Source: Paraburkholderia sp. BL21I4N1
GTDB lineage: Bacteria; Pseudomonadota; Gammaproteobacteria; Burkholderiales; Burkholderiaceae
DNA length: 64,000 nt
Assembly (NCBI RefSeq): GCF_002973525.1
Contig: NZ_PVEN01000001.1
Coordinates: 372,001 to 436,000, forward strand
Direction: 5' to 3'
In this document: piece after piece, positions 4,204 to 24,510 of the stretch
Layout of the letters: every line of letters starts with the position of its first letter
Numbering within the stretch: the first letter of the stretch is position 1
Notes under the pieces: model-generated
Seen by the model: only the letters and a program-made list of their open reading frames with translations
Database searches by the model: none
Told to the model about the DNA's origin: nothing
Position numbers and translations under genes: made by a program

Positions 4204-5535
4204 TTGACCTCTGCTCTTGCCCCGGCCGCCGATCCGCTCGAATCGGCGGTCTCCAAAGTCAAACGACACGTATTGCCGCTGTTCCTGATCATGTTCATCG
4301 CGAACTACATCGACCGCGTGAACATCGGTTTCGTCAATTCGCACATGCAGACGGACCTGGGCATCGGCGCGGCGGCGTATGGTCTGGGCAGCGGTTTGTT
4401 CTTCATCGGCTATGCGCTGTTCGAAGTGCCTTCGAACGTACTGATGCAAAAGTACGGCGCGCGCGCGTGGCTCACCCGCATCATGGGTACGTGGGGGCTC
4501 GTCGCGGCGGCCATGGCGTTTGTCTGGAACGATACGTCGTTCTATGTGCTGCGTTTTCTGCTCGGTGTCGCCGAAGCGGGCTTCTTTCCCGGCGTGGTGT
4601 TTTACTTCACCCAGTGGCTGCCGCAGAAAGATCGCGGCAAAGCGGTAGCGGTTTTTCTCGCCGGTTCCGCGCTGGCCTCGGTGCTGTCCGGCCCGATCAC
4701 CGGTAGCCTGCTGTCCATTCGCGGCTTCGGCCTGCACGGCTGGCAGTGGATGTTCCTCGTCGAAGGCGGCTTTTCGATCGTGCTGTGCGGCGTGAGCTGG
4801 GTGCTGCTGAAGTCGCGCATTCGCGACGCGTCATGGCTCACCGCCGAAGAACGCACGGTGCTCGAAACGTCGATCGCGACGGAACAGGCCGAGCGCGAGG
4901 CGCACGGCGGCGCGCATCTGCCCGCCATGAAACTGCTGAAAGATCCGCAGATTCTGCTGTTCTGCTTTCTCTACTTCGCGATTCAGTTGACCATCTACGC
5001 CGCGACCTTCTGGCTGCCGACCATCATCCGCAAGATGGGCGGTCTGTCCGATTTCCAGGTCGGCATGCTCAACGCGATTCCGTGGCTGATCGCCATGGTT
5101 GCGATGTACTGTTTCGCAGTGCTGTCGTCGAAGTGGCGCTATCAGCAAGCGTGGCTCGCGGTGGCGCTGGTGATCGCGGCGTGTGGGCTGTTTGCATCGA
5201 CATCAGGCAATCCGGTGCTGTCGTTCGTGGCAATCTGTTTCTCGGCGATCGGCTTCAAGGCGGCGGCTTCCCTGTTCTGGCCGATTCCGCAAGGCTATCT
5301 GGATGCTCGCGTAGCGGCGGCGGTGATCGCCTTGATCAACTCGGTGGGCAACCTCGGCGGCTTCTTTGCGCCGGCCACGTTCGGCTATCTGCAGCAGCAC
5401 ACCGGTTCGATTACCGGCGGCCTGTACGGCCTAGGCGTGGCGTCGCTGATCGCCGCAGCCGCCGGCTTCCTGACCCGCGACCGGCGCGTGAATCGCGACG
5501 CGCAGCCGGAGCCGGTGCATCGCAGCGCGCACTGA
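4204..5535 (+). CDS. MFS transporter, anion:cation symporter family; probable D-glucarate permease
   Basis: A twelve-helix major facilitator of the ACS family (GudP/GarP-like). The first helix region reads IMFIANYIDRVNIGF, typical of this family, and the second part of the N-terminal half contains the ALFEVPSNVLMQKYGAR signature. I place the start at a TTG (4204) because GGAG lies 6 nt before it; an upstream ATG at 4159 in the same frame lacks such a site and would add 15 untypical residues. The dehydratase follows after 144 bases on the same strand, which makes glucarate or galactarate the likely substrate. Length (443 residues) is normal. Confidence 0.88.
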   Translation: MTSALAPAADPLESAVSKVKRHVLPLFLIMFIANYIDRVNIGFVNSHMQTDLGIGAAAYGLGSGLFFIGYALFEVPSNVLMQKYGARAWLTRIMGTWGLVAAAMAFVWNDTSFYVLRFLLGVAEAGFFPGVVFYFTQWLPQKDRGKAVAVFLAGSALASVLSGPITGSLLSIRGFGLHGWQWMFLVEGGFSIVLCGVSWVLLKSRIRDASWLTAEERTVLETSIATEQAEREAHGGAHLPAMKLLKDPQILLFCFLYFAIQLTIYAATFWLPTIIRKMGGLSDFQVGMLNAIPWLIAMVAMYCFAVLSSKWRYQQAWLAVALVIAACGLFASTSGNPVLSFVAICFSAIGFKAAASLFWPIPQGYLDARVAAAVIALINSVGNLGGFFAPATFGYLQQHTGSITGGLYGLGVASLIAAAAGFLTRDRRVNRDAQPEPVHRSAH

Positions 5536-11679: not shown

Positions 11680-12603
11680 ATGGACTTGACCTCGCTGGCC
11701 GATTTCAACGCGGTGGCGCTGCACGGTGGGTTTGGACCGGCCAGCCGGGCGCTCGACCGCCCCAAGGCCACGCTGTCGCGGCGCGTGGCGGAACTGGAGG
11801 AACAGCTCGGCGTGCGCCTGATCGAACGCGGCTCGCGCAGGTTGCGGCTCACCGAGGAAGGCCTGGTGTTGCACGAGCGCACGCGCGGGCTGATGACGGA
11901 GATTCAGGAGGCGGGTGAAAACGTTGCGTCGCGCGCGCCGGTGCCGCGTGGGCGCTTGCGTATCAGTGCGCCGATAGTGTTCGCGCATGTGGTGCTCGGC
12001 CCGATCGCAACGCGATTCGCGCTGGCCTATCCGCAGGTCGAGCTTGAAGTGGTGGCGGAAGACCGCGTCGTCGATCCGGTGGAAGACGGCTATGACCTCG
12101 TGATCCGCATTAATCCGCCGAGCGACGAGCAACTGGTGGGGCGCCGCATTCTCGGCGATCAACTGTGGATGGTCGCGGCGCCGACGGTGTCGATTCCGTC
12201 GGCATCGGCATCGGCATCGGCATCGGCATCCGCCTCCGCGAGCGACGCCGACGCGTTACCGGTGCCCGCCGTGATGTTTGCCGCGGCGGCGCGGGTTGTG
12301 CGCTGGCGCGTGCGGGTGGATGGCGGCGAGGTGCGAACGTTTGCGCCTACGCCGGTGCTGCGGCTGTCGTCGTTATTGATGGTGCGCGACGCGGTGCTGA
12401 GCGGCGTGGGCACGGCGCTTCTGCCGCGTCTGCTGGTGGAGCCCGACGTGCTGTCAGGACGGCTCGTCTGCTGGGGAATCGATGACGGCCCGCCCGTCGA
12501 GGTCTGGGCGCTCTATCATTCGCGGCGTCTGTTGAGCGCCAAGGTGCGAGCGTTCATGAACCTGCTGCAAGACTTGCCGGGCCGGGAGCAAAAATCCGGC
12601 TGA
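11680..12603 (+). CDS. LysR-family regulator with Ser-Ala repeat insertion
   Basis: A 307-residue LysR regulator: winged helix-turn-helix at residues 1-60 (FGPASRALDRPKATLSRRVAELE) and an effector domain from about 90. Residues 174-188 are a Ser-Ala repeat encoded by five exact GGCATC units plus degenerate ones, inserted in the effector domain near the hinge into subdomain II; I know of no such stretch in relatives. It is divergent from the NmrA-like reductase, its likely target. No ribosome site is obvious, but the ATG is the only sensible start before the DNA-binding domain. Confidence 0.9.
   Translation: MDLTSLADFNAVALHGGFGPASRALDRPKATLSRRVAELEEQLGVRLIERGSRRLRLTEEGLVLHERTRGLMTEIQEAGENVASRAPVPRGRLRISAPIVFAHVVLGPIATRFALAYPQVELEVVAEDRVVDPVEDGYDLVIRINPPSDEQLVGRRILGDQLWMVAAPTVSIPSASASASASASASASDADALPVPAVMFAAAARVVRWRVRVDGGEVRTFAPTPVLRLSSLLMVRDAVLSGVGTALLPRLLVEPDVLSGRLVCWGIDDGPPVEVWALYHSRRLLSAKVRAFMNLLQDLPGREQKSG
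12201..12230 (+). repeat. hexanucleotide microsatellite (GGCATC)5 inside the LysR gene
   Basis: Five exact tandem copies of GGCATC. The unit length is a multiple of three, so copy-number change would lengthen or shorten the Ser-Ala stretch without a frameshift. Confidence 0.9.
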
Positions 12604-12661
12604 CGCGACCCGCTTTCAACGTTGAACTTGCAATGAATTTTGGCCGGATACGCTCGCGAGT

Positions 12662-12709
12662 TTCGAGCCGCGCTTCGAACCACGCTTCGAGCCGCGCTTC
12701 GAGCCACCT
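12662..12709. repeat. 12-bp tandem repeats upstream of the amidase
   Basis: Four imperfect copies of TTCGAGCCGCGC lie in the 161-base gap between the LysR gene and the amidase gene. Copies 1 and 3 are identical over 12 bases. Their role is unknown; they could be slippage-prone sequence or repeated protein-binding sites. Confidence 0.7.
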
Positions 12710-12764
12710 TACCCAGGTGTGATTCGCCCTGGAACGTACAACAAACGCCAATTCCAATCTCTCC

Positions 12765-14336
12765 ATGCAACGACGCGGATTCATCAAGTCATTCGGTTTC
12801 CTCGCCTCCGGGCTGTTCTCGACCCACGCTACGCATGCGGCAGACATGAGTCCACTCGCGCCGGTATCGGGCGACCTCGCGGCCAACGCCACTCAGGCCA
12901 CGCGCCTCGCGCTCAGCCGCATCGACGCGCTCGACCGCCGTGGTCCGCGCCTGCGCAGCATCATCGAACTGAATCCCGACGCGCTGCGGATCGCCGCTGC
13001 GCTGGATCGCGAACGCCGCGCGGGCAAGCCGCGCGGTCCGCTGCATGGCATGCCGATCGTCATCAAGGACAACATCGCGACCGGCGACCGCATGTCGACC
13101 ACCGCAGGCTCACTCGCACTCGACGGCATTCGCGCGACGCGCGACGCCGAGCTTGTGCGCCGCTTGCGCGAGGCGGGCGCGGTGATTGTCGGTAAAACGA
13201 ATCTGAGCGAGTGGGCGAACATTCGCTCCACCCGTTCGACCAGCGGCTGGAGCGGACGCGGCGGTCTGACGCGCAATCCCTACGGATTGGATCGCACCAC
13301 CAGCGGTTCGAGTTCCGGGTCGGCGGCGGCAGTCGCGGCGGGCATGACGACCCTGGCGATCGGCACGGAGACCGACGGCTCGATCGTGTCGCCCGCGTCG
13401 ATGTGCGGCGTGGTGGGCCTCAAGCCGACGGTGGGTCGCGTGAGCCGTGACGGCATCATCCCGATCTCACACAGTCAGGACACACCCGGTCCGATCACGG
13501 CGACGGTTCGCGACGCGGCGCTGCTGCTTTCGGCAATCGCAGGCGGCGGCGATCCGCGCGATCCGCGAACGCTGCCGGCCCCGGCCCCGGACGATTATCT
13601 GCGAGCCCTGCACAAAGACGCGCTCAAAGGCGCACGCCTCGGCGTGGCGCGGGAGTTCTTCACGGGACATGACGAAGTCGACCAGCGGATCGAGTTGGCC
13701 ATCGCGCAGTTGAAGCGCCTCGGCGCGGAAATCGTCGACCCGATCGATCTGCCGAAGGTCGATTACGGCAAGGAGGAACTGGCTGTTCTGCTGCACGAAT
13801 TCAAACACGATCTGCCGCTGTGGCTCGACACGTTCGCGCCGCACGCGCCGATTCATACGCTGGCCGATCTGATTGCTTTCGACAACGCGCATGGTCGTGA
13901 CGAGATGGCTTACTTCGGCCAGGAATTGTTCGACCAGGCGCAGGCGCTCGGCGATCTGGATAGCGACGCGTATCGCGCCGCGCTGGCCACCTGTGCCAGG
14001 CAATCGCGCGACGAAGGGCTCGATCGTGTACTGCGTCGGCACGGGCTGGATGCGATCGTCGCGCCGACCGGCGGCACGGCGTGGCTGACCGATTTCATCA
14101 ACGGCGACAGCGACGGCGGCGGATTTTCGACGCCGGCCGCCGTGGCGGGTTATCCGCACCTCACGGTGCCGGCCGGCCAGGTGCGCGGTTTGCCGGTCGG
14201 ATTGTCGTTCGTCGGACCCGCGTGGAGCGAGGCGCGTTTGCTGGCGCTCGGCTATGCCTACGAACAGGCCACCCAGTGGCGCAAACCGCCGGACTACCCG
14301 GCGCACACGGCCACGCCGATGCCGTTGCCGATCTAG
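12765..14336 (+). CDS. Tat-exported amidase (amidase signature family)
   Basis: A 523-residue amidase-signature hydrolase. The N-terminus has a twin-arginine signal (QRRGFIKSFGF) ending near residue 26 (AHA-like sequence THAA), so it should be exported folded to the periplasm. The Ser-cisSer-Lys triad is visible as K101 (VIKDN), S183 (in SGSSSGSAAA) and S206 (TETDGSIVSP). Such enzymes hydrolyse amides to acid and ammonia; the substrate cannot be named. It is not GatA, since no gatB/gatC is near and it carries a signal peptide. It is the first gene after a LysR gene and appears to be monocistronic. Confidence 0.9.
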   Translation: MQRRGFIKSFGFLASGLFSTHATHAADMSPLAPVSGDLAANATQATRLALSRIDALDRRGPRLRSIIELNPDALRIAAALDRERRAGKPRGPLHGMPIVIKDNIATGDRMSTTAGSLALDGIRATRDAELVRRLREAGAVIVGKTNLSEWANIRSTRSTSGWSGRGGLTRNPYGLDRTTSGSSSGSAAAVAAGMTTLAIGTETDGSIVSPASMCGVVGLKPTVGRVSRDGIIPISHSQDTPGPITATVRDAALLLSAIAGGGDPRDPRTLPAPAPDDYLRALHKDALKGARLGVAREFFTGHDEVDQRIELAIAQLKRLGAEIVDPIDLPKVDYGKEELAVLLHEFKHDLPLWLDTFAPHAPIHTLADLIAFDNAHGRDEMAYFGQELFDQAQALGDLDSDAYRAALATCARQSRDEGLDRVLRRHGLDAIVAPTGGTAWLTDFINGDSDGGGFSTPAAVAGYPHLTVPAGQVRGLPVGLSFVGPAWSEARLLALGYAYEQATQWRKPPDYPAHTATPMPLPI

Positions 14337-14524
14337 TCTCGAACGGCCGCTTGAACGGAGTTGGGGTCAGCGCGATGCCGGGCATGCCTTCGATCGCGCC
14401 CAGGTGTTCGGCCCGCATCGCATCAGTTAAGATGAATCACAGGGCCGAAAGACACTAGAGAAGCTGAATCGCCATAGGGGCACGATGGGTTTCATCGCGC
14501 ATCCTCGGTTTAGGGGGTCACGTT

Positions 14525-16045
14525 TTGCGCTACTTGCCAACGTCGATACGTTTCGCACCGTTTGCTTTGTGCTTCATCGGCGCACACGCACTGTGCCTGC
14601 TGATGTTGCCGTCGCGCTCCGCCCTGGTTAGCTATCCTTTTCTGATCGTCGCGCCTTCGCTCGCATTGGGAGCCTGCTTCTGGCGCGCCCGCGCCGAGGT
14701 CCGCGCGTTGCGCATGCCGTGGGTTCTGCTCGGCGCCGGCCTGTTTCTGTGGATTCTCGGCATCGCGCTCAGCGCCTGGGAAGATATCTTCCAGCAGATT
14801 CCGGAGAGCATCGCGTGGTTCTCCGACTTCAGCTATTTTCTGTACGCCGTGCCGATCCTCCTTGCGATCGCGTCGGTGTCGAACCACCAGCGGATTCCGT
14901 TTTTCGTGTGGATGGACGGCATTCAGGCGGTCGTGACCGCTTACCTTGCGTACATCACGATTTTCTCCGTCGTGCCGTTTTCAGGTCACGCCCTCGCGCC
15001 GATCTCGGCGTCGGTGCTGGTGCTGACTTACAACGTCGAGAACGGCCTGCTGGCCGTCGCGGCGACGTTGCGCCTGCTGGTTCAACCGCGCAACGCGGGC
15101 CGCCGGTTCTACGAAATTCTGTGCGGTTATTTATGGGTCTATGCAATCGTCGCAGGGTTGTACAACCACTGGGCCTCGGTTTCCGACGGCCACGCAACAA
15201 TGGACGTGATCGTCGACATTCCGTTCCTGCTGTTGAGCGCAACGTGTCTGACGCGTCCGCGGAACGCCGCCGACACCGACACGGCCGAATGGAAGAGGCC
15301 GCTCGCGGTCATTATCGAAAACGTCAGTCCGATCTTCTATACGTTGGCGCTGCTTGCGTTGAGCATCGTTCTGATGCGTGAACACTTTTACGTCGGCACG
15401 GTGGGCATTTTTACCGCATTGGTGGTGTACACGATCCGTACCACGACCTTGCAGAGCCGGCTGGTTCGAACCCAGCAGGAATTGCGCGACGCGCGCGACC
15501 GCCTTGAAAAAATCGCACTGACGGATGCGTTGACCAACACGGCCAACCGCCGTTGTTTCGATCAGACGCTGACGCTCGAATGGAATCGTGCGGCGCGTAC
15601 ACAGCGTCCGCTCGGCGTGCTGCTGATCGATATCGATCACTTCAAGAAGCTCAACGACCGCTACGGTCATCCGGCCGGCGACAAATGCCTCGTGGCGGTG
15701 GCGGCCGCGTTGCAGGGGGCGCTGCCGCGCGGCGGCGATCTGCTGGCGCGTTATGGCGGCGAAGAGTTCGCCGCGATCCTGCCGGCCACCGACGAAGACG
15801 GCGCGCGACGCGTGGCCGCGAAAATGCTGAGCGCCATCCACGCGCTGCGGATCCGCAACGAGACACCGCTGGGCGATTTCGCGACGGTCAGCATCGGCGT
15901 GGCGGTGTCGGAATCGGCGGGTGTGGGCTCGGCGCATCAGATTGTCGAAGCGGCGGACCAGGCGCTCTATCGCGCGAAAGACGCCGGACGAAATCGCATC
16001 GAAGCCTTCGTGCCGCGCGATTATCAGGGGAGCGGGTCGACCTAG
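14525..16045 (+). CDS. integral-membrane diguanylate cyclase
   Basis: A 506-residue protein with about eight or nine hydrophobic helices in residues 8-305, resembling MASE-type sensory membrane domains, then a short coiled linker (310-330) and a GGDEF domain (330-500). The loop is GGEEF (411-415) with an RGGD inhibitory site five residues before (402-405). It should synthesise cyclic di-GMP with product inhibition. The start is a TTG with AGGGGGT about 8 nt upstream. The membrane domain could bind a hydrophobic or small ligand; nothing in the sequence identifies it. Confidence 0.92.
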   Translation: MRYLPTSIRFAPFALCFIGAHALCLLMLPSRSALVSYPFLIVAPSLALGACFWRARAEVRALRMPWVLLGAGLFLWILGIALSAWEDIFQQIPESIAWFSDFSYFLYAVPILLAIASVSNHQRIPFFVWMDGIQAVVTAYLAYITIFSVVPFSGHALAPISASVLVLTYNVENGLLAVAATLRLLVQPRNAGRRFYEILCGYLWVYAIVAGLYNHWASVSDGHATMDVIVDIPFLLLSATCLTRPRNAADTDTAEWKRPLAVIIENVSPIFYTLALLALSIVLMREHFYVGTVGIFTALVVYTIRTTTLQSRLVRTQQELRDARDRLEKIALTDALTNTANRRCFDQTLTLEWNRAARTQRPLGVLLIDIDHFKKLNDRYGHPAGDKCLVAVAAALQGALPRGGDLLARYGGEEFAAILPATDEDGARRVAAKMLSAIHALRIRNETPLGDFATVSIGVAVSESAGVGSAHQIVEAADQALYRAKDAGRNRIEAFVPRDYQGSGST

Positions 16046-16094
16046 CCCGCACGGTCGCGATGTCGATGCATGTTGACAGAGGGTTTGTCTCTAG

Positions 16095-16121
16095 TCATAT
16101 CGCCGTCACAGTTGCCGATAA
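16095..16121 (+). promoter_or_regulatory. candidate sigma-28 (FliA) promoter of the chemoreceptor
   Basis: GCCGATAA at 16114-16121 is an exact match to the flagellar sigma-28 -10 element; the -35 position (TCAT at 16095-16098, 15-base spacing) matches only partly. It is 95 bases before the chemoreceptor start, which fits control with motility genes. Confidence 0.42.
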
Positions 16122-16216
16122 ACGGATTGAGTGGCCGCATTCAGCGCAGCCCTAAAAATAACGATAACTCGAACAAGACTTCGTTCAATCCGTCGACACC
16201 GATCTGAGGCGTGGGC

Positions 16217-17854
16217 ATGCATCGATTCAGTTTCACGCAGAAACTCTGGCTGCCGCTCGTCGTCAGCCTGGTCGCACTCCTTGCCGTGTCCGTGTCGGCG
16301 GCGTGGCTATCGCGGCAGACGCGCATCGAGGAACGCAAACACGATCTGGTGAACGTGGCGCACGTAGGCCTCAGCATCGTCAATGAATATGCGGCGCTGG
16401 CGCAAAGCGGCGCGCTCAGCGAGGCCGACGCGCGCAAACAGGCGCTCGAGCGCCTGCGGGGCGTTCGCTACGGCGAAGACGGCTACTTCCTCGTGATCGA
16501 TTCGACGCCGCGCATGGTCATGCATGCGATGAAGCCCGCGCTGAACGGCAAAGATCTCGCCGCCACCGCCGATGCCGACGGCCGCCATCACTACGTGACG
16601 TTCGCCACGGTCGCGCAGTCGCCGCAAGGCGGCTTCGTGGATTACGTGTTCCCGCATCCGCAAGATCCGCCGTCCGCCGCGGTCGGCAAGATCGGCTACG
16701 TGGTGCGTTACGCGCCGTGGGACTGGATCATCGCGACCGGTGCGTACGTGGACGATATCGACGCCGCGTTCAGGGAGTCGCTGTACTTTGTCGGCGGCGT
16801 GTTCGCGGCCGTTGCGCTGTTACTGTCCGCGCTGGCGAGTCTCACCAATCGCAGCATTCAGCGCGCCATTGGCGGCGATCCGGTCTACGTGGCGGAAGTG
16901 GCCGGTGCGATCAGCAACGGCGATCTCGTCGTGCCGATCCAGACCCGTCACGGCGACGAGTCGAGTCTGCTGCTCACCATGCAGCGTATGCGCGACGCGC
17001 TCGCACATACGATCGAACAGATCAAGGGCGCGGCCGACAAAGTAGCGATCGGCGCGCGCGAGATCGCGGGCGGCAACGCGGACCTGTCGGCACGCACGGA
17101 GAGTCAGGCGGCCTCGCTGCAGGAAACCGCCGCGAGCATGGAACAGATGACGGCGATGGTCAGGCAGACGGCGGAGAACGCGCAGACCGCCAGCCGGCTC
17201 ACGTCGAGTGCGGAGCAGATCGTCAATCGCGGCGGCGAGATGGCGGCCGAGGCGGTGTCGACCATGCAGGAAATGTCGGCGGAGTCGCAGCGCATGGTGG
17301 AAATCATCGCCGTGATCGAAGGCATTGCATTTCAGACGAATATTCTCGCGCTTAACGCGGCGGTCGAAGCCGCTCGGGCCGGCGACGAAGGGCGCGGTTT
17401 CGCGGTGGTGGCCGGCGAAGTGCGAACCCTGGCGCAGCGCAGTGCCTCGGCCGCGAAAGAGATCCGCACGTTAATCAGCCGTGCGGCGGAAAAGGTCGAG
17501 AACGGGGCGGCGCTCGTCGGTAAAACCGGCGCGACGATCCACGACGCGCGCGAGGCGATCGCGAAAGTGTCAGGCGTCATGCGCGATATCGCCGCCGCGG
17601 CCGCCGAACAGAGCGCGGGCATCGATCAGGTCGGCGACGCCGTCACGCAGATGGATAGCGTGACGCAGCAAAATGCGGCGCTGGTCGAGCAGGCGGCGGC
17701 CGTTGCGCAGACGCTCACCGAGCAGGCGAAACTGCTGCAGGTGTCGATCTCCACGTTTCAGTTGCGGGACGGTTCGACGAATGCGTCCGCATCGCCGCCC
17801 CTGAATCCACGAGCCGCGCGCCGCGATGCGCGGGGTCTCGCTACCGCGCTATGA
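16217..17854 (+). CDS. methyl-accepting chemotaxis protein with single Cache sensor
   Basis: A 545-residue transducer. Helices at about 10-30 and 190-212 enclose a periplasmic domain with [10 protein letters not shown] and later [20 protein letters not shown], the hallmark of an sCache_2 domain, whose relatives often bind short carboxylates. A HAMP region follows (about 215-270), then the signalling hairpin with [20 protein letters not shown]. No C-terminal CheR-binding pentapeptide is seen. ATG 16217 is preferred because GAGG ends 7 nt before it; a GTG two codons earlier is less well placed. A flagellar-type promoter lies upstream. Confidence 0.92.
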
Positions 17855-17935
17855 ATCGGCATTAAAGCGCTGGACATGTCTGCCTCTTTCAACGGATGAG
17901 CCGAATATAATCGGTCAGCCTTGGGAGGATCTCAT

Positions 17936-19042
17936 GTGCATCGCATTTCGACATCTCCAGTCAAGACAGCGCCACGTAAGCCCAGTCCGGTGACGCGGCA
18001 TATCGCGTGGTTTCGTCACGTGGTTGTGCGCGCAAGCGTCGGCGTGGTTGGCCTGGTGTTGGGCCTGCATCGTGCCATGGCGGCGGACGACGGCACCGTC
18101 ACGCTATACGGCGTGCTCGACACCAGCGTTGAAATCACCAACCCGGGCTCCGGATGGACCGCCCGTCTCGACTCGGGCGCCTATCGCGGCTCGCGAATCG
18201 GATTGCGCGGCGCCGAGCCGATCGGCGCCGATACCTATGTGGTGTTCGCGCTGGAAAACGGTTTCAGCACCACGGACGGCACCTTGCAAACGCCGGGTGT
18301 GATATTCAACCGCCAGGCATGGATCGGTTCGCGAGGTCATTGGGGCGAAGTGCGTTTCGGCCGCCAGTATTCGCCGATCTATATTCCGTTCAAAGGCGAT
18401 CTCGACGCGTTCGGCGCAGGTACGATCGGGTCCGGGCTCAACAACCTGTCGAAAATCACGCCGTACACGAATAACGCGATCACGTATCTGTCGCCGCAAG
18501 TCGGCGGCTTTGACGCGACGGTCATGATGGCCCTGCGCGATGCGTCGGAGAACGACGGTAACGGCGTCGACGGTTACTACGTGACGGCCCGTTATCAGAT
18601 CGACAACTTCAAGCTGTTGTTCGCGCGTCAGCAGACCCACGGTGCCGCTGCGCTGCGCGCCAATCTCGGCGGCGCGAGTTATGCCATGGATAAGGTCCGC
18701 GTGTGGCTGTCGTTCTTCAACGGCGACGGCGGCTCGCCGCGGTATCACGGCGCGGGCGGCTCGCTGTCGGCGCAATACAGCTTTTCCGCCGACACGCGCG
18801 CCTCGCTGGGCTATGCGCACGTGCGGGATTTCACGGGCGAAGGCGCAAGCGCCGATCAGTTCAGCGCATCGTTCGAATACAACCTGTCGCGCACGCTGCT
18901 GTTTTATTTCACCGCCGCCTATCTCGCGAATCACGACGATGCCGGCTTCACGCTGCGTGGCGTCAACGTGACGGGCTTGCCGGTTGCGTATCCCGGTGCG
19001 CCGGTCAAAGGCGTACAGCTTGGCCTCGTGCAGCGGTTCTAA
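17936..19042 (+). CDS. Gram-negative general porin (Burkholderia type)
   Basis: A trimeric outer-membrane porin of 368 residues. A signal peptide ends near AMA-ADD, followed by GTVTLYGVLDTSVEI, the conserved first strand of the OmpC-like Burkholderia porins. RQAWIGSRGHWGEVRFGRQ is the next conserved block, and the chain ends in a C-terminal Phe as required for barrel assembly. The start is GTG 17936, 7 nt after GGGAGG; an overlapping ATG at 17934 is out of frame. The signal region is long (about 40 residues before the hydrophobic stretch ends). It is convergent with the patatin gene. Substrate specificity is unknown. Confidence 0.9.
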   Translation: MHRISTSPVKTAPRKPSPVTRHIAWFRHVVVRASVGVVGLVLGLHRAMAADDGTVTLYGVLDTSVEITNPGSGWTARLDSGAYRGSRIGLRGAEPIGADTYVVFALENGFSTTDGTLQTPGVIFNRQAWIGSRGHWGEVRFGRQYSPIYIPFKGDLDAFGAGTIGSGLNNLSKITPYTNNAITYLSPQVGGFDATVMMALRDASENDGNGVDGYYVTARYQIDNFKLLFARQQTHGAAALRANLGGASYAMDKVRVWLSFFNGDGGSPRYHGAGGSLSAQYSFSADTRASLGYAHVRDFTGEGASADQFSASFEYNLSRTLLFYFTAAYLANHDDAGFTLRGVNVTGLPVAYPGAPVKGVQLGLVQRF

Positions 19043-19092
19043 GCGGCGCCGCATCGGGAGCGCGCTATTGCCGGTTTCGCCGCACCGCGCAC

Positions 19093-19995
19093 TCAATGCG
19101 CGTGTTGTCGCAATTCACCGGGGATGAACACATGCTCCAGGCCGCCGCCATCCAGCCACTCGCGCGTTTTTCCGGCGGCCCGATCGATCAGACGATCGCA
19201 TTGCGTGTAATCGTAGGGCGAGATTTCGAGCGGGCAGAGCGGCGGTACGACGAAGATGTCGGCGCGCGTCGAGTAAAACTCCAGATCGCGAACCAGCTGA
19301 CGCGCAATGACCAGCGTCAGCGCGTGCATGGCCTGGCCGATCGCGCTGGAAGGCGGCGCGTGCAGTGCGCACGCAAAGCCGGCCGGCAGCACGACGATGC
19401 GTGTGGCGCCGAGACCGATCGCGACTGAAATGGGCGTGTTGTTGGCGACGCCGCCATCGACCAGATCCACGCCGTCGATCCGCACCGGCGGAAACACGCC
19501 GGGAATCGCCGCGCTGGCAAGCACCGCCTCCACCACCGGGCCGGACGAGAGAACGACTTCGTTGCCCGACAGCACCTCGGTCGCGACGATATGCAGCGGC
19601 AAGGCCGCCTGCTCGATGCGCGCGTAGCGCAGGTTTTTTTCCAGCAGCGCGCGCAGTGCTTTGGCTTCCACGAGATGCGGACGGCGCCGCAACAGAATGT
19701 CGAGCAGCCCGAGCATCGAAAACGGCATGATGTCCTGCCGGCGGATGCGGCACCAGAGTGCTTCCAGTTCCGCGACGCCTTCGCCATTGGGCGTACCGGC
19801 GAAATAGGCGGCATTGATCGCACCCGCCGAAGCGCCGACGACGCAACCGGGACGCTCGCCGCGATTCAGCAGTTCCCGCAGCATGCCGACCTCGATTGCG
19901 CCGAGACTACCGCCGCCCGCGAACACGAACGCGGTTAGCGGTGCTCGCGCCGCGCTTGCGGGCAGATCGGACTGCGTGGCTTGAATCGATGACAT
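19093..19995 (-). CDS. patatin-like phospholipase in the sigF operon
   Basis: A 300-residue patatin-fold lipase/esterase. An oxyanion loop (FAGGGSLGAIEVG) is followed by the nucleophile elbow GASAG and the catalytic Asp in VDGGVANNTP, giving the Ser-Asp dyad. No signal peptide is seen, so it should act in the cytoplasm or at the inner membrane. ATG 19995 is preferred over a GTG at 20007 because GGAG lies 7 nt before it. It begins 27 bases after the nrsF stop on the same strand, so it is probably the third gene of the sigF-nrsF unit, linking phospholipid or lipid turnover to that stress response (inference). Confidence 0.88.
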   Translation of the reverse strand: MSSIQATQSDLPASAARAPLTAFVFAGGGSLGAIEVGMLRELLNRGERPGCVVGASAGAINAAYFAGTPNGEGVAELEALWCRIRRQDIMPFSMLGLLDILLRRRPHLVEAKALRALLEKNLRYARIEQAALPLHIVATEVLSGNEVVLSSGPVVEAVLASAAIPGVFPPVRIDGVDLVDGGVANNTPISVAIGLGATRIVVLPAGFACALHAPPSSAIGQAMHALTLVIARQLVRDLEFYSTRADIFVVPPLCPLEISPYDYTQCDRLIDRAAGKTREWLDGGGLEHVFIPGELRQHAH

Positions 19996-20022
19996 GACGG
20001 TCTCCACGACATATCGGGCGCC

Positions 20023-20667
20023 TCACCAACGCAACAGGCGCGGTCCCAGCAATGCACCGACGATAGTCGGCACCAGCATGCCTAGCACGTACCACACGCC
20101 CCAGAACGGGATCCCCATCTCAGGGCAATGCAGGCAATAGGCGAGCGTGGCCGTCGAGCCGGCCAGCAGCCCGCCCGCCGCGCCGGCCAGCGCGAGGCGG
20201 GTCGGCGCGAGTCCCTTCAGCGCCCAGAAAATGGCGATGAAGCCCGGCACCGACAGCATCGTGATATTGAACGGGCAGACGCGCCATGTTTTGCCGAGCA
20301 CGAGCGCGAGCCGCAGGTCGGACGGCGCGGACATCAGCACATACAGCCCCGCCAGCCAGACCACGGCCACCGGCACGGCGACCAGCAGACGGCCGCTCGC
20401 GCTCAGCGCCGCGCCGGGCCGGGCGAGCCGCGTGGACAGTTGCAGCGCGCCAAGCATCAGGCACAGCGGCAACGCGATTTTCGCCCAGAAGATCGGCGTG
20501 GCCGCGACTTCCGCCAGATCGCGGCGCACGCCGAGCAGCACCGCGACCATCAGCGTCGCGCCGACCGCGCCGACCAGCACGGCGAGGCTGAAGCGCTTGG
20601 CGAGCAGGTGCCGGTCGACCGGCGCGGCGCCCGTTGCAAGCAGGGAAATCAAGTCGTCCGTTTTCAT
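20023..20667 (-). CDS. nrsF: NrsF-type anti-sigma factor (DUF1109)
   Basis: A 214-residue inner-membrane protein with six hydrophobic helices and a short cytoplasmic N-terminus ([16 protein letters not shown]) typical of DUF1109. In Caulobacter NrsF holds SigF inactive at the membrane, and conserved periplasmic Cys are needed for release. Here the candidate pairs are Cys in KTWRVCPFN and in AYCLHCPEM. The ATG overlaps the sigF stop by four bases (ATGA), so the two are translationally coupled. A longer frame extends upstream but is antisense-like noise over sigF. Confidence 0.9.
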
Positions 20668-21188
20668 CGCGTTCCTCGAATCTTTGCCGCCAGCGCCTTG
20701 AGCCCACGGTGTACGCCGATCTTCACCGCCGATTCCGACAAGCCCGTCATTTGCGCGGTCTCCGACACGGAGAGCCCTTCCAGCTTGACGTGCACGATCG
20801 GCAGCCGCTGGCGGTCCGGCAATTGATCGAGCAGCTTGCCGAGATCGCGCCTGGCCTGCGCCGGCTCCAGATCGGGCGCGGCCAGCAATTCGGAGGCGTC
20901 GTCGAGCGGATCGTTCAGCGCGTCGTAACGCGAGCGCGCCCGAAAGTAATCCGTCAGCTTGTAGCGTGCGATCGCGTGGACCCAAGCGGTCAGCGGTTCC
21001 TCGGGCCGGTAGGTGTGCCGCCCGTTGTGGACGGCCAGCAGCACTTCCTGCACGAGATCTTCGATATCGCCCGGCTGGCTGTGCAAACGCCTCCTCAGAA
21101 AACCGCGCAAGTGCGTGCTCAACTCCGACAGGAACCGCCGATACGCCGCTTCGTCACCATCCATGCCTTTGAGAAGCAGCGCCTGCAA
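20664..21188 (-). CDS. sigF: ECF sigma factor, SigF type
   Basis: An ECF sigma-70 factor with region 2 (RGFLRRRL to [13 protein letters not shown], then [17 protein letters not shown]) and region 4 ([18 protein letters not shown] with [16 protein letters not shown]). I start it at TTG 21188 (174 residues): AAGGAG lies exactly 6 nt upstream. The frame also opens at ATG 21236, but a perfect SigF-type promoter (21252-21227) overlaps that ATG, so the transcript would begin downstream of it. Partners are the overlapping anti-sigma gene and the divergent bufferin operon, whose promoters carry the same motif. Oxidative or metal stress is the probable signal, by analogy with Caulobacter SigF. Confidence 0.88.
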
Positions 21189-21226
21189 GTGCCTCTCCTT
21201 GATTTGCAACGTCGCGTCATCGTTAG

Positions 21227-21253
21227 TTCGATCCATCGGTCGCTCTGGTTACA
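21227..21253 (-). promoter_or_regulatory. SigF-type promoter of sigF (autoregulation)
   Basis: Minus strand: TGTAACC (21253-21247), 16-base spacer, CGAA (21230-21227). It matches the GTAACC-N16-CGAA pattern I recall for Caulobacter SigF and the two promoters facing the other way. The expected transcript start near 21220 leaves a leader of about 30 bases with AAGGAG before TTG 21188. Confidence 0.85.
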
Positions 21254-21340
21254 CAAAGAGTGAAATTTATTTTGCGCAGATTTTACGCTGCCGCGCGCGC
21301 GGACCCAAACCACCGCGAACCGCATTCGGTGCGGTAGGCG

Positions 21341-21388
21341 CGAAAAATTTTTTCGACGCCGTGTAACCGCACGACGTGTCGCGGCGAA
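21341..21388 (+). promoter_or_regulatory. SigF-type promoter P1 of the bufferin operon
   Basis: A/T tract CGAAAAATTTTTTCG (21341-21355), then TGTAACC (21362-21368), a 16-base spacer and CGAATTA (21385-21391). An exact GTAACC-N16-CGAA match, 220 bases upstream of bufA1. Confidence 0.82.
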
Positions 21389-21460
21389 TTAGCTCACAGA
21401 CCGAACGCTGGGGTCCCATGAAGACGCCGCACCGTGATTCCAGCCGGGTCGCAAGAAGCC

Positions 21461-21507
21461 GCAAAATTTTTTTTCGTTGCTGTAACCGGTTGTCGAAAGT
21501 CGTCGAA
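21461..21507 (+). promoter_or_regulatory. SigF-type promoter P2 of the bufferin operon
   Basis: A/T tract (21462-21474), then TGTAACC (21481-21487), a 16-base spacer and CGAATTA (21504-21510). It is the proximal copy, about 100 bases before the bufA1 ATG. Confidence 0.85.
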
Positions 21508-21607
21508 TTACCTTCCAGCAAACGCAAGCAAATCCGGCCCACTGCCTGAACCGCCTGCGCTGCTAACCAACCTGAACCCTGAAACGAAGTCTCTTGAGGA
21601 ATCCATC

Positions 21608-21886
21608 ATGAACAACCTTAAACTCGCCGCCGCCGCTCTCGCCCTCGCTTCGCTCGCTAGCGGTGCTTTCGCTCAAACCCAACCGGCCGCTGGCGGCGCG
21701 ATGGAGAAGTGCTACGGCGTGGCGATGGCCGGCCACAACGATTGCAAGGCCGGCGCGGGCACGACGTGCGCGGGCACCTCGAAGACGGACTATCAGGGCA
21801 ACTCGTGGAAGAACGTGCCGGTCGGTACCTGCACGACGATCAAGACGCCGCACGGCACGGGTTCGCTCTCGCCGATGGCATCGTAA
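21608..21886 (+). CDS. bufA1: bufferin-type precursor peptide (DUF2282)
   Basis: A 92-residue exported peptide. A signal peptide (1-22, ending AFA-Q) precedes a core with four Cys at 35, 46, 54 and 75 in the contexts [19 protein letters not shown] and VGTCTT, the conserved DUF2282 pattern. In Caulobacter such peptides (bufferins) are modified at Cys by a DUF692 enzyme and then bind copper in the periplasm. Here the DUF692 gene starts 22 bases downstream. AGGAATCC precedes the ATG at a suitable distance. Two SigF-type promoters lie upstream. Identity is strong; copper binding in this organism is inferred. Confidence 0.9.
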
Positions 21887-21908
21887 TTCGCCGCGCCGCC
21901 CGTCGATC

Positions 21909-22751
21909 ATGAAGACGCTAACCCACATGGGCGCCGGTTTGGGCCTCAAGCCCGACCACTACGCGCAGGCTCACGACTGCAACGCGGAAGGTCTGTGGTT
22001 CGAGGTTCATCCCGAGAACTACATGGTCGACGGCGGCCCTCGCCTCGCATGGCTGGACGCGATTCGCAGCCGTCATGCGCTGTCGCTGCATGGTGTGTCG
22101 TTGTCGCTGGCGGCGGATAGTGCGCCCGACGCGGTGCATCTGCAAAGACTGAGGGCCCTGGCGGATCGCGTCGAACCGGCGCTGGTGTCGGAGCATCTCG
22201 CCTGGTCCACGTGGCGCGGCGCGTATCACCCCGATCTGCTGCCGTTTCCACGTACTCGCGAAGCGCTCGTGCGCATCGCGGACAACATCGCCCGGACTCA
22301 GGATGCGCTCGCGCGGCGCATCGCGATTGAAAACCCCACGCATTATCTTCAGCTCGACGGTCATGACATGGACGAGCTGACGTTTCTCGGCGACCTGTGC
22401 CGCACGACTGGGTGCGGTTTGCTGCTCGACGTGAACAACGTTTTTATCAGCGCGCACAACCTGGGCTTCGACGCGGCGTCGTATCTCGACGCGGTGCCGG
22501 CCGACGCGGTGATGGAAATTCATCTTGCCGGCCATAGCCGCGACGCTCACGCCGCCACCACGCTGCTGATCGATTCGCACGACGCACCGATCGCCGACGA
22601 CGTCTGGTCGCTGTATGGCCGCGTGATCGAACGGATCGGTGCGAGGCCCACGCTGATAGAGCGCGACGATCACCTTCCGCCGTTCGACGATTTGCTAACG
22701 GAACGCGCCATGGCTCAACGGTTATTGGCGAACTCGGAGGCAATCGTATGA
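21909..22751 (+). CDS. bufB: DUF692 multinuclear iron oxidase (MNIO), bufferin maturase
   Basis: A 280-residue TIM-barrel enzyme of the MNIO family (relatives MbnB, TglH), which use clustered iron ions to rewrite Cys residues of ribosomal peptides. Candidate His/Glu/Asp/Asn ligands appear in the expected order: LHGVSLS, SEHLAW, ENPTHY, LDVNNVF, EIHLAGH and DSHDAPI. It lies 22 bases after the precursor and overlaps the DUF2063 gene by four bases (ATGA), the standard MNIO/partner arrangement. The start ATG 21909 gives the family N-terminus ([11 protein letters not shown]); the frame extends upstream over bufA1 but that part is not coding. Confidence 0.93.
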
Positions 22752-23515
22752 ACCGCTCCCTCAGCCACTTCCAGGATGCCTTCGCGGGCGCGCTTTACGA
22801 CGCCGATGCGGCGCCGCCCGTGCTCGCTTCGTTGCTCGCGCAACCGGGCTTCGCGGTGTATCGCAACAACGTCGTGAAGGCTTGCATCGACGCGTTGCAA
22901 GCGAACTTTCCGAGCGTGGAGCGGCTGGTCGGCCGCGACTGGTTTCGCGCCGCCGCCGCGATCTATGTGCGCCGACAAGCGCCTTCGGACGCAAGGCTGC
23001 TGTACTACGGTCACGATTTCCCCGCGTTTCTGGACGGCTTCGAGCCGGCTCGCGAACTGCCTTATCTGGCGAACGTCGCGCGACTCGATCGCTTGTGGAC
23101 CGAGACGCACGCGGCGGCGGACAACCCCGGCATCGACGTTCTCGCGCTGGCCTGCCTGACACCGGAAGCACTCGGACGGCTGACGCTGCCGCTACGCGCC
23201 GCCGTGCGTTGGCAATGGTTCGTCAACCAGCCGGCCTACACGATCTGGCATTGCAATCGCGAAGCGATCGACCTGCCGTCACATCTCGACTGGTCAGGCG
23301 AAGGCGCGTTGCTGACGCGCCCGGAAGGCGCCGTGCTGTGGCGACCGCTCGGCGCGGGCGGCTGCGCCTTTCTCGACGCATGCGCCGCCTCGCAAACACT
23401 CGACGTCGCCGCACAAAACGCGCTCGACGCGCAACCCTCACTCGATTTCATGCAACTTCTCGGCGACCTGATCGCGGCGGGCGCATTCGCTGCCATCGAC
23501 GTTGCCACTCACTGA
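22748..23515 (+). CDS. bufC: DUF2063 partner protein of the MNIO enzyme
   Basis: A 255-residue protein whose N-terminal domain ([11 protein letters not shown], later [20 protein letters not shown] and [16 protein letters not shown]) is DUF2063. In MNIO systems this partner recognises the precursor peptide and delivers it to the enzyme. It overlaps the bufB stop by four bases, so stoichiometric production is likely. The C-terminal half is less conserved. No signal peptide, so it acts in the cytoplasm with BufB before export of the peptide. Confidence 0.9.
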
Positions 23516-23541
23516 ACACGTTAACCGACACGGAGATTCAT

Positions 23542-24015
23542 ATGGAAGCGATCCAGAACACGGCGCCCGGCGCGCACACCACGTTGCGCGGACGCTGGAA
23601 CGCGCTAGCCGCGAAGCTGCAAATGTTGATCAACGACTCGCTGTTGTCGCTGGTGGCGCGTTTCGCGATTGCCGCGATTTTCTTCATGTCGGGACGCACG
23701 AAAGTAAGCGGCATCCTCACGTTGACGCCGAGCACGTACGAACTGTTTCGCACCGAATACAAACTGCCGCTCGTGCCGCCGGAAATCGCCGCGCATATTG
23801 CCGCGTATTCGGAGCATCTGTTTCCGTTGCTGCTGGTGCTGGGTCTGTTCTCGCGCTTCTCGGCGTTCGCGCTGCTCGGCATGACGACGGTGATCGAGGT
23901 CTTCGTCTATCCGGACGCATGGCCGACGCATCTGTCGTGGGCCGGCTTGCTGCTGGTGATCATCGGACGCGGTGCGGGCGTGTTCTCGCTGGATCATAAG
24001 TTCGGCATCCGCTAA
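23542..24015 (+). CDS. DoxX-family membrane protein of the bufferin operon
   Basis: A 157-residue protein with four hydrophobic helices (about 33-52, 78-100, 102-122, 126-145) and the family sequence [11 protein letters not shown]. DoxX proteins often accompany DUF2282/DUF692/DUF2063 operons; their role is unclear, perhaps redox or quinone-linked. The gene starts 26 bases after bufC with CGGAGATTCAT before the ATG, so it is the last gene of the operon. No terminator with a T-run was found immediately after it. Confidence 0.9.
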
Positions 24016-24313
24016 GGTCGGGCAGCGCTGACGCGGCTTTCGGCCGCTGATGCTTATCCCGCTCGCTATTCGTGACAAAGACACTGAATAGTCGTTATGG
24101 ATAACCCATTCCCGCTTTCCCCATTGCGGCAACCCGGTCTACCGGCCCTTCGCCCGTGGCAATGGCCGCCTTCTGCGCGAATAGCGGTTTAATTTCACGA
24201 GATTGTTAAATTACGTGAGGCTATGCTGGGCATTTAGTTTGCCTATCGCGCGAACATCTCTTAAATGCGCGGACGCCCGATGGCGATTGGCATTGGCCGC
24301 AAAAGCGACGCGG

Positions 24314-24510
24314 GAATAAAAAAGGCCGACACAGCGTGTCGGCCTAAAGACTCTGGCGTCCGAGGATTGCATGCCAGAACCTGAGAGACGTTTGTCGGTC
24401 AATTTTGCGATTGACGCAGTGCAATGCAGTATTTGTTGCGCTATCTCAAGCCGGATAGGCGTTTGCGACAGTTCGTAACAAGCAGGCTTCCAACCGGACC
24501 GCCGTGGTAG
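24314..24510 (-). ncRNA. candidate small RNA ending in a strong terminator
   Basis: Promoter-like CTTGAA (24543-24538) and TATAAT-like TAATAT (24521-24516) with 16-base spacing are followed about 195 bases later by a strong hairpin and T-run. No coding frame with a ribosome site fits. It could instead be the 3' leader/trailer of the upstream response regulator transcript. No known family recognised. Confidence 0.3.
24318..24345 (-). terminator. intrinsic terminator on the minus strand
   Basis: A perfect 10-bp stem (24323-24332 with 24336-24345, three-base loop) followed on the minus strand by six T. It lies 290 bases after the response regulator stop. Confidence 0.85.

Follow-up and report, generated by a model that had tools for sequence, protein, structure and literature searches.

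A Buf1-type bufferin operon opposite sigF-nrsF in Paraburkholderia sp. BL21I4N1, and a SigF-type promoter motif across the sigF start codon

What does a sigma factor held by a membrane anti-sigma factor switch on, and does it amplify or restrain itself, when its own promoter motif lies across its own start codon? The question is raised by a stretch of 64,000 nucleotides (hereafter the window) from Paraburkholderia sp. BL21I4N1 (contig NZ_PVEN01000001.1, positions 372,001 to 436,000; genome of 8.44 Mb in 61 contigs), in which a sigF-nrsF unit, followed by a patatin-like gene, is divergent from bufA1-bufB-bufC-doxX, with all genes above the Pfam cut-offs (Table 1). Judged from the sequence, this is very probably a complete Buf1-type bufferin operon facing its regulators, predicted, upon release of SigF by metal stress, to supply a copper-binding peptide to the periplasm. 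The SigF-type motif of sigF overlaps the sigF start codon, the ATG preceding the -10 element.

What the sequence shows is the gene set, the motifs in a fuller form (A/T-tract-TGTAACC-N16-CGAAYTA), the conserved cysteines and the confinement of that form to one locus. As in described Buf1 clusters, there is a four-Cys DUF2282 precursor, a BufB-type multinuclear non-heme iron-dependent oxidative (MNIO) enzyme, and a DUF2063 partner together with DoxX. The first-pass annotation of this DNA had stated that the peptide keeps the four Cys of DUF2282 and is followed by an MNIO enzyme and a DUF2063 partner, and both statements hold: the peptide matches PF10048 and its Cys35, Cys46, Cys54 and Cys75 are conserved in 95-99% of 79 aligned copies, and the Pfam matches of the two following genes are joined, for BufB, by membership of the NCBIfam family “MNIO family bufferin maturase” (NF050167; 358.8 bits against a cut-off of 310). 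Against NCBIfam BufA2 the peptide scores 23.5 bits (cut-off 60), which fits Buf1 and not Buf2, and its N-terminus, judged by eye, resembles a signal peptide. On the regulatory side, three features of the SigF-NrsF type of extracytoplasmic function (ECF) group 16 are present, namely an ECF sigma factor adjoining an NrsF (DUF1109) anti-sigma factor, Cys131 and Cys181 in that anti-sigma factor, and tGTAACc-N16-CGAA upstream of the targets. NrsF has a single match in the whole genome, and its two cysteines, which carry the same numbers as in Caulobacter, are conserved in 78 of 78 aligned sequences.

Caulobacter is indeed, as first noted, where the gene set is known together with the same motif: SigF regulates the same genes there from 5′ RACE-mapped (rapid amplification of cDNA ends) promoters (Kohler 2012, PMC3511200), and SigF-NrsF with CC3254-CC3257 is described with the window's gene set, gene order, GTAACC-N16-CGAA and NrsF Cys131/181. 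Kohler 2012 also reports similar sequences upstream of sigF homologues in other bacteria (PMC3511200), and the gene set and motif have also been published for Sinorhizobium (S. meliloti RpoE7, PMC6180224). Caulobacter SigF is reported to be copper-induced and required for normal growth with copper, the sigF mutant being copper-sensitive (PMC8224329); Caulobacter Buf1 is reported to bind copper via Cys-derived thiooxazoles, and sigma and NrsF genes are listed among Buf1 cluster components (PMC12452194). The further claim that SigF/NrsF answers both oxidative and metal stress survives in its copper half; against the oxidative half, the SigF-dependent Caulobacter genes are reported not to be induced by agents that generate reactive oxygen species (PMC3511200), although PMC8224329 cites a weak oxidative-stress resistance of the sigF mutant in stationary phase and the homologues of Bradyrhizobium (EcfF) and Brucella are reported to respond to H2O2 and to HOCl, respectively. 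In the mechanism that we envisage, a thiol-reactive metal would act on Cys131 and Cys181 of NrsF; SigF would leave NrsF and direct RNA polymerase to P1 and P2, the two motifs ahead of bufA1; BufB with BufC would oxidise the two inner Cys of BufA1 to copper-chelating thiooxazoles; and DoxX would have an auxiliary role.

Table 1. Features of the sigF-nrsF/bufferin locus (window coordinates)
Feature	Position	Strand	Basis or remark
Patatin-like phospholipase gene	19093 to 20007	-	Patatin PF01734, E 3.1e-31; 15 bp after nrsF
nrsF, membrane anti-sigma factor	20023 to 20667	-	NrsF PF06532, E 1.1e-73; Cys131 and Cys181
Shine-Dalgarno-like GAGGAA of nrsF	20672 to 20677	-	Sequence
sigF, ECF (group 16 type) sigma factor	20664 to 21236	-	Sigma70_r2/r4_2 PF04542, PF08281; ATG 21236-21234
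AAGGAGAGG then TTG (codon 17), possible alternative start rivalling the embedded ATG	21186 to 21200	-	Sequence
TTG at codon 10, place of possible sigF start in distant relatives (8-20 nt after CGAA)	21207 to 21209	-	
SigF-type motif over sigF start codon	21227 to 21252	-	Exact; in-frame TAA in GTAACC at 21251-21249
A/T tract upstream of sigF -35 element	21263 to 21273	-	Sequence; A/T peak there in 59 sigF sites
A/T tract of P1	21343 to 21353	+	Sequence
SigF-type motif P1 of bufA1	21363 to 21388	+	Exact GTAACC-N16-CGAA
A/T tract of P2	21463 to 21474	+	Sequence
SigF-type motif P2 of bufA1	21482 to 21507	+	Exact; kept in L054 and L026
bufA1, DUF2282 bufferin precursor, 92 aa, four Cys	21608 to 21886	+	PF10048, E 4.5e-25
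bufB, MNIO bufferin maturase	21909 to 22751	+	MbnB_TglH_ChrH PF05114, E 2.1e-95
bufC, DUF2063 partner protein	22748 to 23515	+	PF09836, E 3.6e-21
doxX	23542 to 24015	+	DoxX PF07681, E 4.4e-16

The positions and N16 spacing first given for the three exact GTAACC-N16-CGAA sites, which fall within 281 bp, proved correct. That they arose by chance, the genome being large and GC-rich, is hardly credible: in 100 shuffled versions of the window, searched with spacers of 15-17, the mean was 0.21 sites and three never occurred (0/100), and conservation refutes the idea, as relatives hold the motif at the same place. Chance does better elsewhere, since the whole genome contains 13 exact sites against 9 for a reversed control pattern; the motif is thus near chance outside this locus, and most of the other ten sites may be accidental.

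A fuller promoter emerges from the relatives. Three sets of loci were compared: 80 chosen by similarity to the window NrsF, the 29 best-scoring loci of the genus and the 29 best-scoring loci of the phylum. The first set yielded unique sequences of 59 sigF sites and 54 output sites, sorted by position, in which an A/T tract lies 11-20 bases upstream of GTAACC (A/T content in the two 5-base bins 0.83-0.91 at output sites and 0.69-0.87 at sigF sites), a T precedes GTAACC without exception (59/59 and 54/54) and the downstream element mostly reads CGAAYTAC. Among the 13 exact genomic sites, only the window's three have the form TGTAACC-N16-CGAAYTA. The genome-wide search for GTAACC-N16-CGAA that had been proposed for this locus thus returns ten more exact sites, none of the fuller form: one has the leading T alone (L007), another CGAACTA alone (L013), and a wider SigF regulon was set aside because 0/10 combine the T before GTAACC with CGAAYTA. 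The SigF regulon seems, from these patterns, confined to one locus, whereas Caulobacter SigF is reported to control in addition a second DUF2282/DUF692/DUF2063 operon and msrPQ. Of the genome's three MNIO genes, two belong to further MNIO/DUF2282-like clusters without the SigF motif (L018, G000:C1:889000-897000, adjoining a PCu_AC-like gene, and L019, 1098000-1106000, adjoining a cyanase-like gene, both neighbours read by eye). SigF control of these clusters was rejected, as they hold no site at one mismatch or fewer with a spacer of 16; a looser search (exact GTAAC, at most two mismatches, spacers of 15-17) likewise gave none a short way before their bufA-like genes. There are likewise four msrP-like matches in the genome, and the three regions read have no SigF site close upstream, the nearest being a one-mismatch site about 1.3 kb before one of these genes (L193).

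The bufA1 gene is preceded by two such promoters, P1 and P2, set 119 bp apart with an A/T tract ahead of each; the published accounts of the Caulobacter buf operon, as far as available, mention no second promoter (PMC3511200, PMC8224329). Both are present in the corresponding locus of P. bryophila (L054), whereas another close relative (L026, genome G022) is without a segment of about 119 bp bearing P1, the gap falling between two CAAAATTTTTTTTCG-like tracts, which is the outcome expected of recombination between them. Aligned over 65 bases, P1 and P2 show 28 differences, so that a duplication, if it gave rise to them, was not recent.

Another question is which signal the operon answers, and several observations weigh against copper or against the assignment itself. 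NrsF scores 137.9 bits against the NCBIfam AntiSigF_NrsF equivalog, whose cut-off is 300, and hence belongs to the Pfam family but not to that equivalog; BufA1 falls below every NCBIfam bufferin cut-off. Reporters of S. meliloti rpoE7 are described as unresponsive to H2O2, cadmium and chromate (PMC6180224). The Azospira-type set comprises sigF, nrsF, mrpX and yedYZ (PMC4623255), and the methionine-rich (Met-rich)/MsrPQ-like output is reported to counter reactive chlorine in Azospira and Brucella. Azospira SigF/MrpX/YedYZ and Brucella BcrS-AbcS/BcrXQP resemble the window in having a SigF-type sigma and an NrsF-type anti-sigma factor, and the window's nearest regulators adjoin outputs of that kind, in which a Met-rich MXKDX peptide and a methionine sulfoxide reductase are described as acting against hypochlorite, unlike a Cys-based copper peptide. 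Copper may thus not be what the operon responds to, its regulator's nearest relatives being in charge of a Met-rich peptide/MsrPQ-like operon.

The trees bear directly on this point. The outputs of the 80 loci comprise 41 with at least two of bufA-C and no MsrP/MsrQ match, two with buf genes and a distant MsrP-like match, 27 with MsrP/MsrQ-like and/or MxKD-repeat genes (22 both, 4 Msr only, 1 MxKD only) and ten with neither. A SigF+NrsF tree of 76 rows (excluding L064, L084 (stops), L110 (no sigF), L125 (sigF end not beside nrsF) and L129) places the window and P. bryophila among loci that mostly have the Msr-type output. They share a supported set of 22 rows in which this holds for 20 (95/81), and inside that a smaller one of 13 rows in which it holds for 11 (98/88); a quick tree of NrsF only is concordant, with support of 89-92 on the same branches. 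Three output labels require five changes on the tree, and the buf label alone also five, all of them forced by supported branches. BufB tells a different story, for in a quick tree of 38 rows (among them C. metallidurans, L134; long branches meet elsewhere in it) the window's BufB groups with Pseudomonas BufB (Shimodaira-Hasegawa-like approximate likelihood ratio 96), apart from the eight other named Paraburkholderia BufBs in that tree. With the regulator in an Msr-type Burkholderiaceae clade and BufB with Pseudomonas, outputs have apparently been exchanged. Differential loss of two ancient outputs is an alternative, as Caulobacter SigF serves both.

That the window's operon answers reactive chlorine or thiol oxidants in place of copper, its SigF-NrsF having come from the Met-rich peptide/MsrPQ branch, nonetheless seems unlikely. 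The 22-row set and the Pseudomonas affinity of BufB speak for it, as does the reported response of Brucella BcrS-AbcS, with bcrXQP, to hypochlorous acid (PMC8315932); on the other side, Caulobacter SigF is reported to serve both outputs and to answer copper, and Cys131 and Cys181 of NrsF are identical in both branches, so that the tree is silent on the signal.

A case closer to the window than Caulobacter keeps copper in view. In Cupriavidus metallidurans, of the same bacterial family, gigPABT-rpoQ-rsqA is reported with the same divergent arrangement (68.4% DNA identity over 78% of the window query) and as induced by copper and gold, with a small contribution of gig to copper resistance (PMC10304878); strong copper induction of gig is reported elsewhere as well (PMC7563307). 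Control of gig by RpoQ is stated to be not yet shown (PMC10304878, PMC11022561), and, as a further point on the unfavourable side, deletion of rpoQ raised gig expression in metal-treated cells, which the authors ascribe to compensation (PMC10304878). The novelty that the first-pass annotation saw in a Burkholderia-like genome accordingly falls away, given this arrangement (PMC10304878): the bufferin operon adds one more member to a family of operons already described, and already known from this bacterial family. What may go beyond the known family, as a variant, is the promoter placed on the start codon, together with the recombinant combination of regulator and output; in the titles and abstract openings searched, with subscription journals mostly outside, neither a SigF promoter over the sigF start codon nor an output exchange is described.

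As to how the pairing arose, replacement of outputs at one chromosomal place was considered and not supported, as only L054 and L026 among 19 loci compared share the window's neighbourhood and none of the 15 Msr-type loci compared does; the cassettes have thus also moved. The nearest NrsF among named loci is that of P. bryophila (94%), in the same neighbourhood. In two relatives of the genus, homology to the right flank of the window ends near 24311-24318, and in one genome (G017) left-side homology resumes only below 12570, with other genes between; these breaks place the locus in a variable segment. The stretch replaced there, 12570-24311 of the window (about 11.7 kb), holds an amidase, a GGDEF protein, a chemoreceptor, a porin, the patatin-like protein, sigF-nrsF and the buf genes. 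The notion of a transferable module fares unevenly: plasmid and megaplasmid relatives (68-69% identity, 68-78% of the query covered), the differing nearest kin of regulator and BufB and the variable segment favour it, whereas 0/234 records cover 80% of the query in one place. The patatin gene, possibly a third gene of the sigF operon, adjoins nrsF in the window and in the window's nearest kin, L054 and L026; of the remaining relatives looked at, only L030 gave a match in this place, and a partial one.

Several relatives deserve mention in their own right. L084 (4855-5202) encodes, opposite a 190-codon sigF, a signal-peptide-like protein with AMAADTMAPG-type repeats, perhaps a Met-rich output; its nrsF holds two stops. 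A Pseudomonas clade of seven loci (L073, L075, L083, L085, L087, L094 and L113) has sigF-nrsF and the sigF site but lacks an exact divergent site and, within the flanks examined, any recognised output. Four Pseudomonas loci (L104-L107) hold two nrsF each, about 4.8 kb apart and each near SigF-type sites; in L104-L106 each nrsF is also near a bufA.

We return to the sigF motif itself. It had been held that exact promoters drive both divergent units. All three sites are exact as claimed; the minus-strand site, however, spans the ATG (21236-21234) and is not placed upstream of sigF, so that it may not drive sigF itself. An in-frame TAA lies 15 bases before this ATG, and therefore no sigF start is possible further upstream. 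An ATG or GTG (RTG) is embedded in 56 of the 59 related sigF sites and in one of the 54 output sites, which shows that the RTG does not belong to the promoter. The pattern GTAAC-N11-RTG-N3-CGAA, followed by a frame of 150-230 codons, occurs in 60 of the 80 NrsF-similar loci, 8 of the 29 genus loci and 2 of the 29 phylum loci; out of 150 Burkholderiaceae genomes, 10 show a stricter pattern, counting the window's own genome and one false match (L143 of G138, rejected because its frame has only 14 codons), as do 14 of 25 genomes of a genus (g50) whose BufBs adjoin those of Pseudomonas in the tree. At codon 4 of sigF, 55 of 62 unique genes use ACT, a codon that makes up 8% of Thr codons further on, an indication that the promoter constrains the overlapping codons (the search pattern itself prescribes CGA at codon 3 and the first base of codon 4).

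Two departures from the overlap were seen. Pseudomonas chlororaphis and Pseudomonas morbosilactucae (L117 and L120) have at 5398-5445 an extra GAACGAAYTACA-like copy before sigF, with an ATG 9 nt after the upstream CGAA, so that the gene is near-leaderless and the overlap is gone. In Burkholderia sp. Ac-20379 (L110:2108-2195), a SigF-type site stands directly before nrsF with no sigF match there, a natural promoter-to-anti-sigma arrangement.

Two outcomes can be envisioned for RNA made from the start-codon promoter. Because such RNA would start after the sigF ATG, it may give mainly or only NrsF, and the switch would then be self-limiting, an upstream promoter supplying full-length SigF and NrsF and the SigF-type promoter NrsF only, by which SigF would raise its own inhibitor. 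We hold this for the window as a tentative possibility. The embedded RTG and the in-frame TAA argue for it, as does the fact that, among 60 unique contexts from relatives, nrsF has a Shine-Dalgarno-like match of its own in 40. In this sigma group, the transcription start site (TSS) mapped for Bradyrhizobium EcfF lies 6 bp after the -10 element, over the annotated ATG (PMC3420878). The same logic is described, by way of analogy, in Corynebacterium glutamicum SigH-RshA, where housekeeping promoters give sigma and anti-sigma factor and a sigma-dependent promoter inside sigH gives the anti-sigma factor only (PMC3489674); that promoter is reported within the coding region, whereas the window's lies across the start codon, and SigH-RshA involves no bufferin.

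The absence of later start codons is what gives this idea its substance. From 92 loci, with six copies of the window's own locus excluded, 78 distinct coding sequences were obtained, of which 28 have no ATG, GTG or TTG in codons 6-17 (17 have none in codons 6-25 and 13 none in codons 6-40). Of 72 sequences in the same register, 26 form this no-start group, and their codons 12-17 still evolve like coding sequence: over 13 disjoint pairs they show 9, 11 and 29 substitutions at codon positions 1, 2 and 3 (p 6e-4). In frame, synonymous and nonsynonymous changes number 19 and 16, while the two remaining frames together give 4 and 70 (Fisher 2e-8). Codons 12-17 are most likely translated in this group, and the embedded ATG is the only canonical start ahead of them. 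Where the downstream start has been lost, SigF-driven RNA should give NrsF and not full-length SigF. Points to the contrary are that codons 6-11 look neutral in the same group and show only a weak coding signal in a set of 36 pairs (p 0.17), that a Shine-Dalgarno-like match accompanies just 6 of the 62 embedded starts and that no sigma-70 consensus promoter was found upstream of sigF in 21150-21640, which is a weak negative. In C. metallidurans, moreover, rpoQ starts 16 nt after CGAA behind a Shine-Dalgarno-like GGAGAAG and not inside the promoter as in the window; its low-scoring TSS is reported as RpoD-dependent (PMC10304878), which, with the start so normally placed, offers the window's sigF only an analogy.

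The other outcome is ordinary self-amplification, in which translation from the TTG at codon 10 or codon 17 would give a SigF 9 or 16 residues shorter. For the window we rate it slightly above the self-limiting switch, at something close to an even chance. The motif (GTAACN, spacer 15-17) occurs near sigF in 26 of the 29 phylum loci, and each of the 26 carries an in-frame start codon 8-20 nt beyond CGAA, at a place matching codon 10 of the window; two of the phylum loci (L145, L149) have an embedded ATG in addition, and a third (L146) has an ATG in another spacer register. Among 77 relatives with the embedded start, codon 10 is still a start codon in 38, and in 24 a Shine-Dalgarno-like match goes with a start in codons 6-35; the window itself retains both TTGs, that at codon 17 behind AAGGAGAGG. 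For EcfF, which is reported to answer H2O2, the authors chose a distal start (PMC3420878). EcfF-OsrA resembles the window in that the annotated start, there of an autoregulated gene, lies over the transcript start, and in its corresponding Cys129 and Cys179; a distal start is proposed for it and its operon is reported as positively autoregulated, in contrast to the 28 of 78 window-type genes that have no start at codons 6-17. Those 28 count against self-amplification, as do the CTG that the nearest relative, P. bryophila, has at codon 17, the want of a Shine-Dalgarno-like match before the window's TTG-10, and the conservation of an embedded ATG that output sites lack. Taken across the phylum, genes of this kind seem ordinarily to start after the TSS, which makes self-amplification possible, and the embedded start looks like an addition.

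Overall, a picture can be drawn, if only with reserve, of a Burkholderiaceae/Pseudomonas branch in which a self-limiting SigF switch has been combined with Cys-bufferin and Met-rich MrpX-MsrPQ outputs that were exchanged several times, the window being one exchange. If nothing but the anti-sigma factor comes from the start-codon promoter, sigma switches that are close relatives would have opposite feedback, and their sequence signature could be looked for in any genome. An exchange of a Cys-based copper peptide and a Met-rich oxidant scavenger behind one regulator would, in addition, open the signal of NrsF to a direct test.

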